DNA of 20,485 bases from a virus. A program made the position numbers and the translations under genes. The stretch's first letter is position 1. Each line of letters opens with the position of its first letter. The notes under the pieces are model-generated. The model was given only the letters and a program-made list of their open reading frames with translations, ran no database searches and had not been told where the DNA came from. Location: the IMG/VR virus record IMGVR_UViG_3300010885_032667, positions 1-20,485 of that record. One strand, given 5' to 3'. This document shows positions 7,828-20,168 of this stretch, piece by piece.

Positions 7828-8181
7828 ATGGATCCTGAAGTAACAATTGGAGTTGTTAGTAATTTGTTCAGTAAACAAATGCATTTTAAGTTGTGTGGAG
7901 ACACTCATCAAGGGCATAGTCATTTATATGATCATCTAACCTTATTAGCTCATGGACGATTAAAGGTCACAGTAGAGGGTCGAGATACCGAATTTACTGC
8001 ACCACATATGATATTCATCAAAGCTGATAAAGAGCACATATTAGAAGCACTAGAAGATAATACTGTGGCCTATTGTATACATCCTCTAAGAGATAAAGAT
8101 GGTAGCGGAGATATATTAGATCCATCGATGATACCTGATGGTGTTCATCCTCAGTCAATGAGTGAACCGTTAGCACGATAA
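7828..8181 (+). CDS. cupin-domain protein, copy 1
   Basis: A 117 aa single-domain cupin. Motif 1 is GDTHQGHSHLYDHLTLLAHG (residues 24-43) with H27, H30, H32 and H36 available for metal binding. Motif 2 is APHMIFIKADKEHILEALED (58-77) with H70. Cupins of this size bind a metal or small ligand and can be isomerases, oxygenases or sensors; no specific activity can be assigned. It is almost identical to the product at 9675-10025, differing mainly at the first residues, a few internal positions and the tail. Its Shine-Dalgarno AAGGA (7816-7820) is 7 nt before the ATG. Position after a fibre gene suggests a partner or modifier of the fibre. Confidence 0.75.
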   Translation: MDPEVTIGVVSNLFSKQMHFKLCGDTHQGHSHLYDHLTLLAHGRLKVTVEGRDTEFTAPHMIFIKADKEHILEALEDNTVAYCIHPLRDKDGSGDILDPSMIPDGVHPQSMSEPLAR

Positions 8182-9674: not shown

Positions 9675-10025
9675 ATGGAACCCGAAACATTTATTGGAGT
9701 TGTTAGTAATTTGTTCAGTAAACAAATGCATTTTAAGTTGTGTGGAGACACTCATCAAGGGCATAGTCATTTATATGATCATCTAACTTTATTAGCTCAT
9801 GGACGATTAAAGGTCACAGTAGAAGGTCAAGATACTGAATTTACCGCACCACATATGATATATATCAAAGCTGACAAGGAGCACATATTAGAAGCACTAG
9901 AAGATAATACTGTGGCTTATTGTATACATCCGTTAAGAAATGAAGATGGTAGTGGAGATATATTAGATCCATCAATGATACCTAATGGAGTACATCCTAC
10001 AAGTGAACCTTTAGTCCGATACTAA
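9675..10025 (+). CDS. cupin-domain protein, copy 2
   Basis: A 116 aa cupin, a near copy of the protein at 7828-8181. Residues 7-51 are identical between the two, including the histidine motif (H27, H30, H32, H36), and the second motif is kept (APHMIYIKADKEHILEALED). Changes are few: the N-terminal MEPETF, R52Q, F63Y, D89N, K90E, D103N and a 2-residue gap near the end with an added final Tyr. At DNA level a stretch of about 90 bp near the start is identical, which suggests recent duplication or gene conversion. Its ribosome site AGGA (9663-9666) lies 8 nt before the ATG. It is the last gene of the plus block, and its stop is 2 nt from the stop of the convergent gene. Confidence 0.75.
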   Translation: MEPETFIGVVSNLFSKQMHFKLCGDTHQGHSHLYDHLTLLAHGRLKVTVEGQDTEFTAPHMIYIKADKEHILEALEDNTVAYCIHPLRNEDGSGDILDPSMIPNGVHPTSEPLVRY

Positions 10026-11873: not shown

Positions 11874-14310
11874 ATGGCATCACCAACAATTTCTATATCT
11901 AGCAATAAAAGTCCGGTGCTGGCCGGAGAAACCGCTACAATAACATTTGCGCTTAGTGAATCATCCACAGATTTTACATCCGGTGATGTATCAGTTACAA
12001 ATGGATCTCTAAGTAGTTTTAGTGGCACTGGTACAAACTACACTGCTACTTTTACACCATTAACAAATAGTAATTTATTTTCAACTATTTCAGTTGCTGC
12101 TGGTGCTTTTCGTAATTCAGCAAATGAAACCAATGTAGCAGCATCATATTCGTTATCTGTCAATACTGTTGTCAGTGCGCCCACTAATGTAAATGTAACG
12201 GTAACAGACACTGTTCCACCTACATTATCTATTACCAGTAACAAGTCTATTGTTACCATAGGTCAAACTGCAACATTAACATTTAATCTAAGTGAAGTAG
12301 CTACAGATTTTACAAGTGGTGATGTTACAGTAACTGGTGGTACAGTTTCAAACTTTTCAGGTAGTGGCACAAGTTATACTGCAACATTTACTCCAACTGC
12401 TAATAGCACTACAAATGGAGTAATCAGTGTTGCAGTAGGAACCTTCAGTGATCCTGCTGGTAACAAGAATGCTACTGGTGCAACCTATACTATAACAGTT
12501 GATACCACTGTTCCAACAATTTCAATTAGTGCTAGTCCAACTACACTAACTGCTGGACAAAAATCTCTAATAACATTTACATTAAGTAAAACATCTACAG
12601 ACTTTACCTTATCTGATATCACATCTACAACAGGCTCTCTTGCTGAATTTCAAGGCACTGGAACAAGCTATAGTGTGGTCTTTACACCAGTTGCTGGTAG
12701 TAATTCAAGTTCAACTATCAGTGTTGCCAGTGGAGCATTTCACGATGCTAATTCTGTGGCCAATGACACAGGTGCATCAGTTACTATTACATCTGGTACA
12801 GTTGTACCTACAATTAGTATCACTAGTAATCCTAGCACATTGATTGCTGGACAAACATCTGTAATAACATTTACTCTTAGTGCATCGTCGACAAATTTTA
12901 CTGCTGATGATATTGGTGTTACAAATGGTGTTATTGGTAATTTTACAGGTAGTGGAACAAGTTATACAGCCAACTTTAGTCCTTTTCCAAATATAAACAC
13001 CACTGGAACAGTTTCTGTACCTGCTAGTAGTTTTAGTGATGCCACTGGAAATTCTAATGCAGCTAGTGCTTCTACTACATTAACAATTAATACTGTCATT
13101 CCAACCATAGCAATTGTTAGTGACAAGTATGTTCTTGGTATAAGTCAAACCGCAACATTAACATTTACTCTAAGTGAATCTTCTACTAATTTTGTAGCAA
13201 GTGATGTTATAGTAACCGGTGGAACAATTTCAAACTTTTCAGGTAGTGGTAGAAGTTATACAGCTACATTTACTCCTACTTCTAATACATCAATAACTGC
13301 TGAAGTAAAAGTTGATCCTGCTAAATTTACCAATGCAGCAGGCAATTCTAATTCTGTAGGTGCATCAGTTAAAATAGCTATCAATAGTTCTATAACTGGT
13401 GTTACCGCTCCTACTCTTTCTATTACTAGTGACACTGCTAGTCTTACTGCTGGAAAATTTGCAACAATTACTTTTATTTTAAGTCAACCTTCTAATAATT
13501 TTATTGCCACAGACATTACTTACAGTGGTGGTATATTGAGTAATTTTACAGGTAGAGATTCAGTTTATACTGCAATCTTTACTCCTACTAATAACAGTAC
13601 TAATCCTGGTGTAATCAGTGTTTCTAGTAATAAATTTTCTAACTCTAACAATGTTTTTAACACATTAGGAGCAACAGCAAATATATCAATTGACACCACT
13701 AATATAATTCCGCCTAGGATTGCTATTACAAGTGATAAGAATAGTCTTTCTGTAGGCGAGACTGCTAATATAACATTTTCTCTTAGTGCATCATCTAAAG
13801 ATTTTGTTGATTCAGATATCACAGTCAGTGGTGGAACATTAAGTCCGTTAATAGGTAGTGTTGATTATTTTACTGCTGTTTTTACACCAGCATCTAATAG
13901 TACTACAAATGGAGTAATCAGTGTTGCTAGTAACAAATTTAGTGATTCACTGGGCAATTTCAACGTTGATGGATCTGATGCTAATAACACGGTTACGATC
14001 ACAGTTAATACAGTGATTAGGCCTTCGGCACAGATATCGAGTAGCCGTATTGATTTTATATCAGGTACAACTTCTACAGTAACATTTTCTTTAAGCAGTA
14101 CTTCTACAAATTTTATAGCATCCGACGTTGTTGTCAGCGGCGGTACTTTAACCAATTTTGCAGGAAGTGGTAAAACATATACTGCTACATTTACTCCTAA
14201 TCCTACTAGTAAAATAAATGGTGTGATTACCGTACCTGCAGGTTCTTTTACAGATTTAAATACTGTTACAAATATAGCTTCTACACTAACTGTATCAATC
14301 AACACATTAA
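11874..14310 (+). repeat. eight tandem ~300 bp Ig-domain repeats
   Basis: Repeat starts fall near 11874, 12210, 12507, 12801, 13095, 13404, 13704 and 14013, giving periods of about 294-336 bp. The repeats are diverged at DNA level but keep shared phrases such as those coding SGSGTSYTATFTP. This allows copy-number change by recombination without breaking the frame. Confidence 0.8.
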
Positions 14311-17300
14311 TTGCAGATGTTGTTACACCTAATAGATACAATAGTATTCTAACCAATATCAATACTGTATTAAAAACTAACTATGGATATACCAGCATAC
14401 AAAGTGTGCTTACAACCTCCGGTACCACAGTAACGGCTAAACAATGGAACGATCTTTATTACGATCTTAATAGATGTATAGTTCATCAAACTGGAGAACA
14501 ATTAAAAGTTACAGGATTTCCAGCAACATCTAATCTTATTCTTACAGCCGATGCTGTTAACACATTAGTTGATAAATCTAATCAGATAGTGACTAATAGT
14601 ACATCTGTAGCTGATAACCAATTGATTAGCAATTCTGTTAATGGTATTAGTACATTAACTTTGCCCTGGGGTAATACTCGACGCCATCGAGTTAAGCATA
14701 CCTGGCCTAGTCAAACTTTTGCAACTTACTTTTTTAATCTAGGTGGTAAAATTGCCGTAAGATTAAGTTATCCTGATATAGTATATACTGGAGAAGATTT
14801 ACTTTGGAAAAATCTTATTGATGACGTAAATGCTGCATTAGATGCTAGACTGTATGGACCTCAAGATTTCTTAATAGGCTCACCTGTATCAATTACTAGA
14901 AGTTCTGGTAGCGAAAACATCACAGTTAATTTTACTAAAACTAATTCTACCCAAACGCTCACAGAAGTTGTACTAACCAAAGACGGCAGTCTTGCAACAG
15001 CTAACATAGATGTTACTAGCACTGTTGAGTTTAGATATTCAACTGAGCTTCCGTCAGCTTCATTGGCCGGTGGAGGTGTTGCCTGTATTGGTTTACCACA
15101 AACAGAAAAAGTTATTGGATTAGATAATAGTGTAGGTGGTGGTGTTTTGATACAAACAAAAATTCTACAAGTAACACCAAATCCTATTACTATTAGTATG
15201 CCCAGTGGAACTAGCAGTACTGCTACAGTAACATTAACCAATCAAGGTAATACTGCTATGGCTATTACTAGTATTAATGCTAGTATTCCTGCAGGGTCTG
15301 GACTAGTCTCTGCAATACAGTCTAAGAGTTGGTCTACACCTACATTAACATTAGCAGGAAATGGCGGAACTGCTACCTTTAATGTTGTATATTCTAATTC
15401 TCCTAAACAAGGTACATTTAATTCTGTATTGACAGTAGTAGGCGATAATGACACTGGATACACCACTACTCCTATAAACTTAACAGTCACTGAACCGCTA
15501 TTTGATTTTAATTTTAGTCCTGCTAATATTAACATAACGGCAAGGGCTCCCTCCATAACAACTCAGTATGTTACTATAGTTGCCAACGGTTCTTATTCAG
15601 CAAGTTTTACAGATCCAGTGTTTACACAAGATTCACATAATTTCTTTACAATGACTTTTAATAGGCCTTCTATGTCTATGTTGTTGTCATTCAATCCACA
15701 GGCTTATAAGATTAATGGAACATATACCGCCACCGTGAGACTAACATTAACGGGTAACTTAGGAACTAGACCAATTACTAAAACATTGACTTTCACAGCA
15801 GTAAGGGGTCTCAATGATCAATCTAGTCACCTTGGTCATTGGATGAGTCCTCAAGCAGAATATAACTCAGTAATTGGAATGAGTTATGATATTATAGAAG
15901 GAAGCAGATATCTCACAGTGGGTTTTGGTTTAGACGGCGATCCTAATAGTAAAACTTTATTAAAAGATAATCCTAATTTATTAACAACAAATACATTAGG
16001 AATTACTGCCGATGACAAATATTTTAATGGTGGAGCTATAAATGGACCCGTATTATATTCTGTAGTACAAAATTCTAGCTATAGTAGTTTTTATAATCAG
16101 TACGGTGGGTGGATACGAGCAAATACTGCTGCACCAACAGGTATAAATTTTACAAGAGGATATAAATTTTCTACCACAGTAGCAGGAATTTATACTTGGG
16201 AAGTTTCAGCAGCTGGTTCAGGTTCATTTACTATAAACAATGATCGTTCTATGTCTGCTGCTAGTAATTCTCCTACTACTAGCACCAAAGGTACAAAAAT
16301 TCTAGGGGTAGGAAATCATACGGTCGCATTTGATTTAACAGGCTCACCAAGTTTTACTAGTTCGGGAATAGCTATAAGAATTATGGATCCCAATGGAGAA
16401 GAAATTTGGAGCACTAAAAATGCCATAAGATATAATAATCCTTATGCTAATTGGGCAGAAGTATATAGGATGCCAATAATTGGTCAGTTAACCGGAAAGG
16501 CATTGGTACTACAAAGTCTATATTTCTGTATAAAAGATACTGCTGCAAATAGATCAACAGCTGATGGTGAAATTCCTATTGCAACACGTTGGGGATTTTG
16601 GTTTGGAGCAAAATATACCGCCTCTTTAGGATCATTATTCACTGTGAAAGATGACGGATTTGGAAATCTTTCAATAGTAATAAATGCTAAGAGTGGAATT
16701 ACCGGAACTGTAAAAAATAAAGATCTAGATGTAACAGCTAGAAATATACCATACTCTAGTTGGTATTATTCTGCTAGAGGAACTCGATATTCACAATTAG
16801 AATCTGGTCCTATTAACTCCAATGGGGTAGCAGACAGTAACGGTACGTATACACATAAATTTACAGGTTTTGATAGTGCAGGTAATGTTACAACAACCGT
16901 TGTACCTTTTCCTAAACAAGGAGAAGAATTAATATATCAAGAAGCAGATAATCCCTATGCTGGTATTACCCCAAACCCTACTGATCCTGAATCTTTTGAT
17001 TGGAAAGGTGCTGTAGTTGATGCAGCCGTAACATGGGTTGAAGTTGCAGTTGTTGCTGATGCGGTATATCTTGGCGCAGTATATGCCCTTGGTGCCGACG
17101 CTGTTGTTACAGCCGGCGCTGCATATGTTGCTTCGGCGGTTGGCGGATTTACTCTGGCCGAAGCCGCCATCACAGTTTTGGGTTGGACTGGTGGTATGTG
17201 TTTCATTGGCAATACAATAGTTGATATGTTTGATGGTACACAAAAACCTATACAGGAAATTACCATAGGTGATAACGTGTTTAATCATAATAAGACTAAA

Positions 17301-17720
17301 GTCAATACAGTGACCTTTGTTATTAAAAATAATTATACAGGTAATTTATATAGCCCAGATAAATCTATTCTGCCATTTGGTACATTACACCATCCATTAA
17401 TAGTAGATGAAAAACTAGTTAGCTATGTTCCAAAATATGTAGAAGATAATATGCCTTGGTTAGGTAAATGTGAACTAATAAGCAGTGAAACCATTGATAG
17501 CGTTGAAAATACTCCAGTTTATAATTTGTTAGTCAACGGTGATGGTACATATACTGTTAATGGTATCGGAACTACTTCAGTATTTAATAACGGCGGCAAA
17601 TTGATCAAAGATCTAGAACAAGGGTTAATTACTCCAGAAAAGGCTTTGGAAACACTACGCTATCATCATGATGCTGGCGGTAAAACACTACAAGAATGGT
17701 ATTTGGCAAACAAACTATAA
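11874..17720 (+). CDS. giant Ig-repeat virion protein with C-terminal Hint domain
   Basis: A 1948 aa protein, likely a large tail or fibre component. Residues 1-812 are eight Ig-like repeats of 98-103 aa, of the bacterial Big_12 type (core: AGxTATITFxLSExSTxF, SDVxVxGG, SYTATFTP). Residues ~815-1090 resemble a conserved marine-phage virion module (YNSILTNINTVL, QWNDLYYDL, HQTG, TWPSQTFATYFFNLGGKI). Two further Ig-like segments cover ~1097-1310; 1313-1700 is unrecognised. Residues 1712-1775 are an Ala/Val-rich hydrophobic stretch. A Hint autoprocessing domain starts at C1776 (CFIGNTIVDMFDG), with a TxxH block at T1837-H1840, YNLLVNGDGTYTVNGI, and N1905. A 41-44 aa tail follows. The usual penultimate His of the C-terminal block is Phe (VFNN), so C-terminal cleavage may be weakened. 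No signal peptide. Confidence 0.75.
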   Translation: MASPTISISSNKSPVLAGETATITFALSESSTDFTSGDVSVTNGSLSSFSGTGTNYTATFTPLTNSNLFSTISVAAGAFRNSANETNVAASYSLSVNTVVSAPTNVNVTVTDTVPPTLSITSNKSIVTIGQTATLTFNLSEVATDFTSGDVTVTGGTVSNFSGSGTSYTATFTPTANSTTNGVISVAVGTFSDPAGNKNATGATYTITVDTTVPTISISASPTTLTAGQKSLITFTLSKTSTDFTLSDITSTTGSLAEFQGTGTSYSVVFTPVAGSNSSSTISVASGAFHDANSVANDTGASVTITSGTVVPTISITSNPSTLIAGQTSVITFTLSASSTNFTADDIGVTNGVIGNFTGSGTSYTANFSPFPNINTTGTVSVPASSFSDATGNSNAASASTTLTINTVIPTIAIVSDKYVLGISQTATLTFTLSESSTNFVASDVIVTGGTISNFSGSGRSYTATFTPTSNTSITAEVKVDPAKFTNAAGNSNSVGASVKIAINSSITGVTAPTLSITSDTASLTAGKFATITFILSQPSNNFIATDITYSGGILSNFTGRDSVYTAIFTPTNNSTNPGVISVSSNKFSNSNNVFNTLGATANISIDTTNIIPPRIAITSDKNSLSVGETANITFSLSASSKDFVDSDITVSGGTLSPLIGSVDYFTAVFTPASNSTTNGVISVASNKFSDSLGNFNVDGSDANNTVTITVNTVIRPSAQISSSRIDFISGTTSTVTFSLSSTSTNFIASDVVVSGGTLTNFAGSGKTYTATFTPNPTSKINGVITVPAGSFTDLNTVTNIASTLTVSINTLIADVVTPNRYNSILTNINTVLKTNYGYTSIQSVLTTSGTTVTAKQWNDLYYDLNRCIVHQTGEQLKVTGFPATSNLILTADAVNTLVDKSNQIVTNSTSVADNQLISNSVNGISTLTLPWGNTRRHRVKHTWPSQTFATYFFNLGGKIAVRLSYPDIVYTGEDLLWKNLIDDVNAALDARLYGPQDFLIGSPVSITRSSGSENITVNFTKTNSTQTLTEVVLTKDGSLATANIDVTSTVEFRYSTELPSASLAGGGVACIGLPQTEKVIGLDNSVGGGVLIQTKILQVTPNPITISMPSGTSSTATVTLTNQGNTAMAITSINASIPAGSGLVSAIQSKSWSTPTLTLAGNGGTATFNVVYSNSPKQGTFNSVLTVVGDNDTGYTTTPINLTVTEPLFDFNFSPANINITARAPSITTQYVTIVANGSYSASFTDPVFTQDSHNFFTMTFNRPSMSMLLSFNPQAYKINGTYTATVRLTLTGNLGTRPITKTLTFTAVRGLNDQSSHLGHWMSPQAEYNSVIGMSYDIIEGSRYLTVGFGLDGDPNSKTLLKDNPNLLTTNTLGITADDKYFNGGAINGPVLYSVVQNSSYSSFYNQYGGWIRANTAAPTGINFTRGYKFSTTVAGIYTWEVSAAGSGSFTINNDRSMSAASNSPTTSTKGTKILGVGNHTVAFDLTGSPSFTSSGIAIRIMDPNGEEIWSTKNAIRYNNPYANWAEVYRMPIIGQLTGKALVLQSLYFCIKDTAANRSTADGEIPIATRWGFWFGAKYTASLGSLFTVKDDGFGNLSIVINAKSGITGTVKNKDLDVTARNIPYSSWYYSARGTRYSQLESGPINSNGVADSNGTYTHKFTGFDSAGNVTTTVVPFPKQGEELIYQEADNPYAGITPNPTDPESFDWKGAVVDAAVTWVEVAVVADAVYLGAVYALGADAVVTAGAAYVASAVGGFTLAEAAITVLGWTGGMCFIGNTIVDMFDGTQKPIQEITIGDNVFNHNKTKVNTVTFVIKNNYTGNLYSPDKSILPFGTLHHPLIVDEKLVSYVPKYVEDNMPWLGKCELISSETIDSVENTPVYNLLVNGDGTYTVNGIGTTSVFNNGGKLIKDLEQGLITPEKALETLRYHHDAGGKTLQEWYLANKL

Positions 17721-17813: not shown

Positions 17814-18386
17814 ATGACTACTATTGCGCTAGACAGGGAACAAGCTGATAAAAGAATATCAGCAGTCAAAGTTGTTAACACTATGTTAATGCTTGCAGCA
17901 TTTATCTGTAGTGTATTATTGCTACAATGGGCAGTAACTGACAAACTATCCCGAACCGAAGTAACTGGAACAAGCCAGATTACTGCCGAAATGAGAGAAC
18001 GACAATTAAGTTGTCTCGCTAAAAATATATATCACGAAGCTGGTAGCGAACCTTTTGAAGGTAAAGTAGCTGTGGCCCAAGTGACATTAAATCGTGCTAA
18101 CAACAGTCAATTCCCTGGCGATGTTTGCAAGGTTATTTTTCAAAAGAATGTTTTCTATGAAAAGGTAGTATGCCAATTTAGTTGGGTATGTGATAGAGAA
18201 GTATCATTCAGACCTACCAATCGTGCTAACTATAATGAAAGCATGATTGCCGCCCAAAAAGTTCTACTAGAAGACTATCGTTTACCTAGTTTGAAGAACG
18301 CTTTATTTTATCATGCGGATTATATAAATCCTGGATGGAAGAAAGAGAAAGTAGCTAAAATTGGACATCATATTTTTTACAAGTAA
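17814..18386 (+). CDS. membrane-anchored SleB-type cell wall hydrolase
   Basis: A 190 aa peptidoglycan hydrolase of the Hydrolase_2/SleB family (PF07486), which cuts the glycan strand as a lytic transglycosylase-type enzyme. The family core runs from ~C67 to the end: CLAKNIYHEAGSEPFEGKVA holds the catalytic glutamate E75, followed by VAQVTLNRANNSQFPGDVC, CQFSWVCD and ALFYHADYINPGW. C120 and C126 could form a disulfide. Residues ~20-41 (VVNTMLMLAAFICSVLLLQW) are one hydrophobic segment with a basic N-terminal side, so the enzyme is probably anchored in the inner membrane facing the periplasm, as in signal-anchor endolysins. It has a very strong ribosome site. It may act as the phage endolysin; a virion-associated entry lysin is the alternative. 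Confidence 0.85.
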   Translation: MTTIALDREQADKRISAVKVVNTMLMLAAFICSVLLLQWAVTDKLSRTEVTGTSQITAEMRERQLSCLAKNIYHEAGSEPFEGKVAVAQVTLNRANNSQFPGDVCKVIFQKNVFYEKVVCQFSWVCDREVSFRPTNRANYNESMIAAQKVLLEDYRLPSLKNALFYHADYINPGWKKEKVAKIGHHIFYK

Positions 18387-18719: not shown

Positions 18720-20168
18720 ATGACTACTCAACATTGTATAATATTAAACTCTAGCAGTATGGCTAGAGCTGTGGGTCCTTATAGGATGGCCACTTTTCTA
18801 AAAGATCATAATTGGGACTGTGAAATTATTGATTATTTTGAATATTGGAAACCTGGATATTTAGAAGATTACATTAAACGTAAAATAACTTCGGATACAA
18901 AATGGATAGGTATTTCATATACCTGGATGGTTGAAAAATCTGAAAAAGTTATAGCCCTTGTTAGTTTTATTAAAAGTATAAGATCTGATCTATTGGTTAT
19001 AATTGGCGGTCAAAGTCCCTATTATAAAGATCTAGGAGCAGACTATTACATATTTGGTTATGCAGAATATGCCACACTTAAAGTATTAGACTACGAGTTT
19101 GGAGATGGAACCCTACCTTTTTACACCAAACTGTTTAATGGTAGATATATAGATGCTTTGCATAACTATCCATCACACGATCTTAAAGATTATTCTATAA
19201 GATTTCAAGATAATGATTTTATATCTGATAAAGATATATTAACTATCGCATTTAGTCGAGGTTGTAAATTTAAATGTGATTTTTGTACATTTCCATTCAT
19301 CGGTATTAAAGAAGATACATCTACATCTGAAGAGATATTGTATCGTGAATTGATGGAAAATTATCAAAAGTGGGGAGTCAAGAATTATTATATCACTGAT
19401 GAAACCCTCAATGATCGAACAGAAAAATTGATAAAAATAAAAAATGTTATTCAACGTTTAGATTTTCAACCAAATCTAACTGGTTTTGTTAGGGCAGATT
19501 TATTAAAAAGTCATCCCGAGCATATGGAATTATTGGCAGAGTCTAGAGTTTGGGGACAATATTATGGTCTAGAAACATTTTGTAGAGATGCTGGTAAATC
19601 TATTGGTAAAGGTCTACATCCAGATATTGTAAAAGAAAATGTATTGAATATACGCGACTACTTTAAAAAGAATTTAGGGTTGTATCGTGGTTCAATCTCT
19701 ATGATTGCCGGATTGCCTTATGAGTCATTAGATAGTATGCGCGAAAGTCAAAAATGGTTAGAAGAAAATTGGGATGATCAATTTGCATTTTGGTATCCCT
19801 TGCAAATTTTAAACGCTCCAAATGGTGTTGGCGCATTATCGGCTATGGGTAAAGATTTTTCCAAATATGGTTATAGAGAAATGCAAGATTCTGAAAAAGT
19901 AAACAGGATTAAAGAAAGTGCATTATATGATCATGAAGTAACCTGGGAAAATGATCATACTAATATATTTGAAGTTCGAAAACTAATTCAAGAAGAATTT
20001 ACTTTTAAATTTAAATTGGGTGGTTTTGTCCTATGGCCACTATTACCCTATATACCTTTTAATAAATTAATGCAGGTGGAATACGATGATTCTAAATTGA
20101 ACATAGAAGCAGCTCAGCCGTTAACTGACAGAATTTCTAGATATATTAATTTAAAATACAAAAATTAA
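18720..20168 (+). CDS. B12-binding-like radical SAM protein
   Basis: A 482 aa radical SAM enzyme. The cluster motif is CKFKCDFC (C182, C186, C189), the CxxxCxxC that binds a 4Fe-4S cluster and S-adenosylmethionine. Residues 1-130 form a Rossmann-like domain of the cobalamin-binding type found in such enzymes (LVIIGGQSPYYKDLGADYYI, then FGYAEYA), but the DxHxxG cobalamin motif is not seen. Later blocks (YYITDETLNDRTEKL, QYYGLETF, ISMIAGLPYESLDSM) fit the radical SAM barrel. These enzymes methylate or rearrange unreactive carbons; the substrate is unknown. It starts 3 nt after the membrane gene, with an IscA-like Fe-S carrier gene nearby downstream. The C-terminal ~100 residues are unrecognised. 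Confidence 0.8.
   Translation: MTTQHCIILNSSSMARAVGPYRMATFLKDHNWDCEIIDYFEYWKPGYLEDYIKRKITSDTKWIGISYTWMVEKSEKVIALVSFIKSIRSDLLVIIGGQSPYYKDLGADYYIFGYAEYATLKVLDYEFGDGTLPFYTKLFNGRYIDALHNYPSHDLKDYSIRFQDNDFISDKDILTIAFSRGCKFKCDFCTFPFIGIKEDTSTSEEILYRELMENYQKWGVKNYYITDETLNDRTEKLIKIKNVIQRLDFQPNLTGFVRADLLKSHPEHMELLAESRVWGQYYGLETFCRDAGKSIGKGLHPDIVKENVLNIRDYFKKNLGLYRGSISMIAGLPYESLDSMRESQKWLEENWDDQFAFWYPLQILNAPNGVGALSAMGKDFSKYGYREMQDSEKVNRIKESALYDHEVTWENDHTNIFEVRKLIQEEFTFKFKLGGFVLWPLLPYIPFNKLMQVEYDDSKLNIEAAQPLTDRISRYINLKYKN

Follow-up and report, generated by a model that had tools for sequence, protein, structure and literature searches.

What is a Hint domain doing at the C-terminal end of a phage adhesin? 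Phage Hints are usually taken to be inteins within enzymes, for example terminases and helicases. The window analyzed here is an entire IMG/VR record of 20,485 bases, and its ORF at 11874..17720 encodes a giant adhesin-like protein of 1948 aa (all features of this gene lie on the plus strand). An earlier note on this DNA had laid the protein out as Ig repeats, a stalk, an Ala/Val-rich segment and a Hint domain from C1776, and Pfam, composition and AF2 recover the same layout. Eight Big_12 (PF19078) Ig-like repeats (11874..14390; Pfam E 5.4e-142, 8 stretches) are spaced by ~294-336 nt and are ~60-79% alike at the DNA level. The stalk, described as beta-rich (residues 840-1312; 14391..15809), is partly shared by L140, L143, L160, and L124 according to tblastn. 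Residues 1313-1681 (15810..16916) are common to the L143 and L124 adhesins (blastp E 6e-28 and 6e-24, respectively) and enclose a PA14-like stretch (~1384-1534) that carriers of the DUF4815 type also have. A hydrophobic helical segment (residues 1712-1775; 17007..17198) abuts the Hint domain. Ala and Val make up 50% of these 64 residues compared to 16% of the whole protein, the 19-mers of highest hydrophobicity fall within them, and they are helical in the AF2 model with a poor pLDDT of ~41-63. The 173 residues from C1776 to the C-terminus complete the protein. Searches of the giant protein against PHROG and NCBIfam returned zero matches, and a scan for promoters and terminators gave no signal above shuffles. 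Its relatives point to a location in the virion.

The bounds of the Hint domain (residues 1776-1902; 17199..17579) come from AF2, Foldseek, VIA-align, and the family alignment. AF2 modeling with a 45-sequence alignment gave a pLDDT of ~96 for the Hint domain and 91-98 across residues ~1775-1948. The model aligns with BIL, Vint, intein, and Hog structures with Z of 9-14. The best solved structure found by Foldseek/VIA-align is the Tetrahymena BUBL BIL2 (6y75; Z 14.2), and further matches are Vint (Z 12.1), the Clostridium thermocellum BIL (2lwy; Z 11.7), the gp41-1 intein (Z 11.6), and hedgehog (Z 10.5, rmsd 2.3 over 111 residues). As modeled, the domain beginning at C1776 is a genuine Hint fold. 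Of the two routes to the domain named in the earlier note, the profile search yields only a weak PF01079 match (E 0.002; 18.2 bits, under the curated cut-off of 29.7) and the structure prediction is clear; judged by the model, the PF01079 miss is a failure of the sequence threshold that leaves the fold unaffected.

The sequence CFIGNTIVDMFDGTQKPIQEITIGD begins at C1776, and the block B TxxH motif is T1837-x-x-H1840 (17382..17393). The block A Cys and the TxxH block of the Hint superfamily are present, as had been proposed, in C1776, T1837, and H1840, and all three are conserved among 43 aligned members of a viral family described below. The C-terminal half of the intein active site is different. 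The last Asn of the gp41-1, Mtu RecA, GyrA, and PI-SceI inteins aligns to model residue 203, which is S1902, and the terminal His-Asn pair is therefore replaced by T1901-S1902 (17574..17579). Inteins have a C-terminal His-Asn followed by Cys, Ser, or Thr; here T1901-S1902 is followed by V1903. The earlier assignment of a Phe to the penultimate His site took V-F-N-N as block G and was misaligned, and the tail, previously put at 41-44 residues, is 46 residues long past T1901-S1902 in the structure alignment (residues 1903-1948; 17580..17717). The idea that the N-terminal chemistry is kept and C-terminal cleavage lost agrees with the alignment, in which Cys1 and His are found in 43/43 members and Ser or Thr stands at the Asn site in 43/43. 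Taken as a whole, the earlier observation is partly confirmed and its interpretation partly supported.

The family was collected with a DNA pattern describing how the Hint begins, which recovered >120 viral contigs with Hints; five Hint-start loci resembled the window, and four of these were chosen for alignment with it. The resulting five-sequence alignment was used as the query and brought in 68 viral loci plus six from bacterial genomes, with L191 as the core relative among the six. L191 is a 3,960-base contig in an Erysipelotrichaceae bin that has the module and is close to the viral L178; it is probably a viral contig placed in a bacterial bin. The weaker loci L180-L190, which have canonical His-Asn Hints, were excluded, and removal of copies >90% alike left 44 core relatives besides the window. 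Only two loci, both 5'-truncated, lacked the Cys-Phe start and were dropped. Conservation was counted over a fuller alignment of 43 rows, the window among them. The aligned domains have a mean pairwise identity of 47%. Cys1, Phe2, and the block B His are invariant (43/43), and the Thr of TxxH is present in 42/43. The terminal Asn site is occupied by Ser in 40 members, Thr in 3, and Asn in none. The penultimate site is Thr in 30, His in 7, and other residues in 6, and the seven members with His suggest that the family descended from a His-Asn form. The YNL..GD and GDxV.N motifs are conserved partly by construction because the search patterns contained them; Cys1, TxxH, and the Ser/Thr site lay outside those patterns. 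When 50,697 phage records were searched at both the nucleotide and the protein level, neither the window C-terminus and stalk nor L130 yielded a convincing relative, and the weak Hint matches there were mostly intein-bearing helicases and terminases.

In every complete family ORF the Hint is joined to a conserved helical tail, and the two together form the C-terminal end. The AF2 model of a long-tail relative (L139; 221 residues, pLDDT 95.7) has five helices past the Hint, and its structure matches are similar to those of the window. The tail is ~90 aa in most relatives compared to 46 in the window, where AF2 also shows helices, and the window tail alone matches the family profile (E 6e-8), showing it can be aligned across carriers. 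The window module (17199-17717), L123, and L124 form a single clade in the tree (support 100/100) with a short tail that lacks the last helices. These three also lack a Glu (model position 42) that the other 40 aligned rows keep; by position, as judged by eye, it may correspond to hedgehog Asp46, a likeness given no weight as evidence. With its shortened tail and no Glu, the window copy might be weaker or altered. A decayed longer tail was sought 3' of the stop codon in this clade and no clear remnant was found, and so decay of a longer tail is not claimed.

The carriers of the module are diverse. Upstream regions fall into ~8 groups by blastp. They include DUF4815 proteins, tied to the adhesins only through the PA14-like stretch; proteins with gp5-like hub/lysozyme N-termini (phrog_694, phrog_430, phrog_1922); a virion structural protein (phrog_29022/phrog_2155); LRR_5 + Big_9 adhesins; and small proteins that lack any known domain. 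In cyanophage S-CAM22 the gene for the DUF4815 protein immediately follows gp7 and gp8 and bears the annotation "baseplate wedge tail fiber connector," and a T4-type gp23 capsid gene is present in 4/18 contigs. The three members of the short-tail clade sit on a Big_12 adhesin, a DUF4815 protein, and an LRR_5/Big_9 adhesin, and L143 matches the stalk and adjoining gene of the window, yet its module groups elsewhere in the tree. In all 23 contigs searched whole, which were picked for holding the module and are in many cases fragmentary, it is confined to one ORF each. Judged from these comparisons, the module is exchangeable between unrelated virion-protein carriers, one per phage. The hydrophobic segment lies ≤60-90 residues before the Cys in the window, L124, L140, L143, L146, L152, and L160, and its limitation to these seven members means it is no defining part of the module; most other members have a Gly/Pro/Ser-rich linker before the Cys. 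L155, L156, and L159 each encode one DUF4815 protein with a canonical Hint ending in VHNK followed directly by a window-type module in tandem.

The reading we favor, with slightly better than an even chance of being right, is that residues 1776-1948 form a one-sided Hint maturation module at the C-terminus, from which an outside nucleophile would release the adhesin. Alignment indicates that the residues for N-side thioester formation are kept and those for Asn cyclization are gone. We infer cleavage, its timing, and its purpose as follows. Once the module has folded, Cys1776 would attack the bond to Met1775 in an N-S acyl shift, and the adhesin would be held on the module as a thioester. Because the Asn-cyclization half is absent, an outside nucleophile would have to resolve the thioester, water being the simplest. 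The predicted scissile bond is M1775-C1776, a 19-kDa module of Hint and helical tail would depart, and the mature virion protein would end at Met1775 with the hydrophobic segment at its new C-terminus. Plain hydrolysis would remove the module and a specific acceptor would give a conjugate. The module would thus act as an exchangeable maturation cassette on varied baseplate and tail-fiber proteins, one per phage. Weighing against cleavage, block F position F:4 is Asn in 43/43 members where inteins have Asp, a position whose role is described (PMC4031507).

Known Hint systems were compared with the module. Type A BILs have the closest folds, and 2lwy shares with the viral module the Asn of the block F motif VYN. 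They end in His-Asn, however, whereas the window module has Thr-Ser and is always the end of the protein; Asn is found in 0/43 aligned members. Block G His-Asn is absent from the module in the family alignment, as it is from type B BILs, which cleave without splicing (PMC4031507) and are known from hypervariable bacterial proteins (PMC7765530); this likeness is drawn from the published description. Vint (Tetrahymena, PDB 8r2c; PF14623) resembles the module in having a Hint fold in the C-terminal part and a helical extension, but Vint proteins are eukaryotic and fused to VWA. The Vint profile scores 14.8 bits on the giant protein against a cut-off of 27, and Pfam finds no VWA domain in it. Hedgehog Hog (1at0, 6tyy) is likewise a one-sided Hint that keeps Cys1 and TxxH, lacks the terminal Asn, and has an extension behind; it differs from the viral module, which belongs to a prokaryotic virus and in which a sterol-recognition region was not identified.

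The Hog comparison gives the strongest rival, a hedgehog-like attachment in which a lipid, a sugar amine, or a partner protein takes the adhesin C-terminus and the helical tail presents the acceptor. It is unlikely but deserves to be taken seriously: the order of Hint then conserved helical extension is the Hog layout of Hint and sterol-recognition region (PMC2362128), Vint 8r2c aligns through the tail helices (146 residues, Z 12.1), no internal C-terminal nucleophile remains, and the residue before the Cys varies freely. The acceptor is hypothetical, however, the window clade lacks the last half of the tail, and the Gly/Pro-rich linkers before the Cys in most carriers fit plain release too. 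Equally tentative is a wider form, a phage conjugation device in which the C1776 thioester would hand the adhesin C-terminus to an acceptor chosen by the tail (a lipid, or an amine on a virion or host-surface protein), leaving one tail protein per phage covalently attached.

Tail spikes have chaperone ends at their C-termini. An uncut module could be an analogous folding or trimerization domain that is retained, which we regard as doubtful. Its constant terminal position, often on fiber or baseplate proteins, and the F:4 Asn throughout are consistent with this role, and the conserved residues could reflect folding needs instead of cleavage; a strict Cys1, which an uncut scaffold does not need, and a TxxH kept in so divergent a family are not. 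Another reading, an intein in decay or a selfish Hint stranded at gene ends, is in keeping with the frequency of canonical His-Asn Hints in viral contigs, some in tandem with the module, but is very improbable given that Cys1, His, and Ser/Thr are fixed in 43 divergent members with one terminal module per contig. Least credible is the polymorphic-toxin layout raised by the earlier note, with a Hint that frees a C-terminal toxin or signaling peptide: the order of stalk, hydrophobic segment, Hint, and tail, with the Hint placed close to the C-terminus of a large surface protein, does resemble pretoxin-HINT proteins (PF07591; PMC3482391), but the terminal Asn is absent, the downstream gene is a cell-wall hydrolase and not immunity-like, and all carriers share a homologous tail, so that it is not a variable toxin, which makes release of a peptide cargo unlikely.

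The neighboring genes bear on the same point. A Hydrolase_2 cell-wall hydrolase (17814..18386, plus strand) lies outside the module, and in L182 its counterpart is 78% identical and the next small protein 85%. The L182 protein in the matching place (L182:1-858) is a related giant protein with a canonical Hint of another type at its end, ...YYVNGLLVHNKD, and it matches residues 1656-1680 of the window protein at 16/25 positions (score 90; shuffles reached at most 53). Past the His-Asn of this Hint there is nothing but Lys-Asp. With only Lys-Asp to release, C-side cargo is beside the point in L182 and an N-side reaction could matter, which further weakens the peptide-release option. A Hint-bearing gene as a constant neighbor of Hydrolase_2 was considered and rejected, a Hint being upstream only in L182 among the 70 loci that had an upstream ORF to check. 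The window also encodes a B12-binding radical SAM protein (18720-20168) and a predicted metal-dependent hydrolase (PF10118; 4670-5602), both unexpected in a tail-gene region; the radical-SAM neighbor used as a scan query gave no match. Two near-identical cupin-like genes (7828-8181 and 9675-10025) lie amid Gly-rich fiber genes and are a recent duplication.

Terminal Hints extend beyond this family. Among 128 viral Hints from the DNA-pattern scan, classified approximately with a simple pattern, 46 are C-terminal without His-Asn, 40 contain an internal His-Asn, and 6 end ≤10 residues past His-Asn. One-sided terminal Hints thus seem, from sequence patterns, common in uncultured phages and to occur in several sequence families. 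At least two further sequence families were seen whose viral Hints are C-terminal and lack His-Asn (CFDPNTLIQMADGSEKK... and CFLKGTLITM...), with members including L007, L011, L012, L019, L040, L044, L093, and L106 and often preceded by Gly-rich linkers. A cultured example is found in Providencia phage PSTNGR1 (Autographiviridae), whose QPB11246.1 (317 aa) has a terminal Hint with VNGYLVSSMADSGG and is encoded by a gene (L277:3054-4007) that overlaps the end of the tail-fiber gene. QPB11246.1 is like the module in its terminal Hint and in having Ser-Ser at the His-Asn site, and unlike it in a partial match to the family profile (E 4e-12) and a shorter end past the Hint.

A literature search turned up no description of Hint modules carried by phage baseplate proteins. 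Structural proteins of uncultured aquatic phages recurrently end in this exchangeable piece, a one-sided Hint joined to a conserved tail of its own. For laboratory work the most direct system is PSTNGR1, which is cultured and has a comparable domain. The module implies that tail assembly or adhesion includes a post-translational step. The same module occurs once per phage on differing tail and baseplate proteins, and it is therefore probably a common, unstudied means of completing or attaching tail proteins in water-borne phages.
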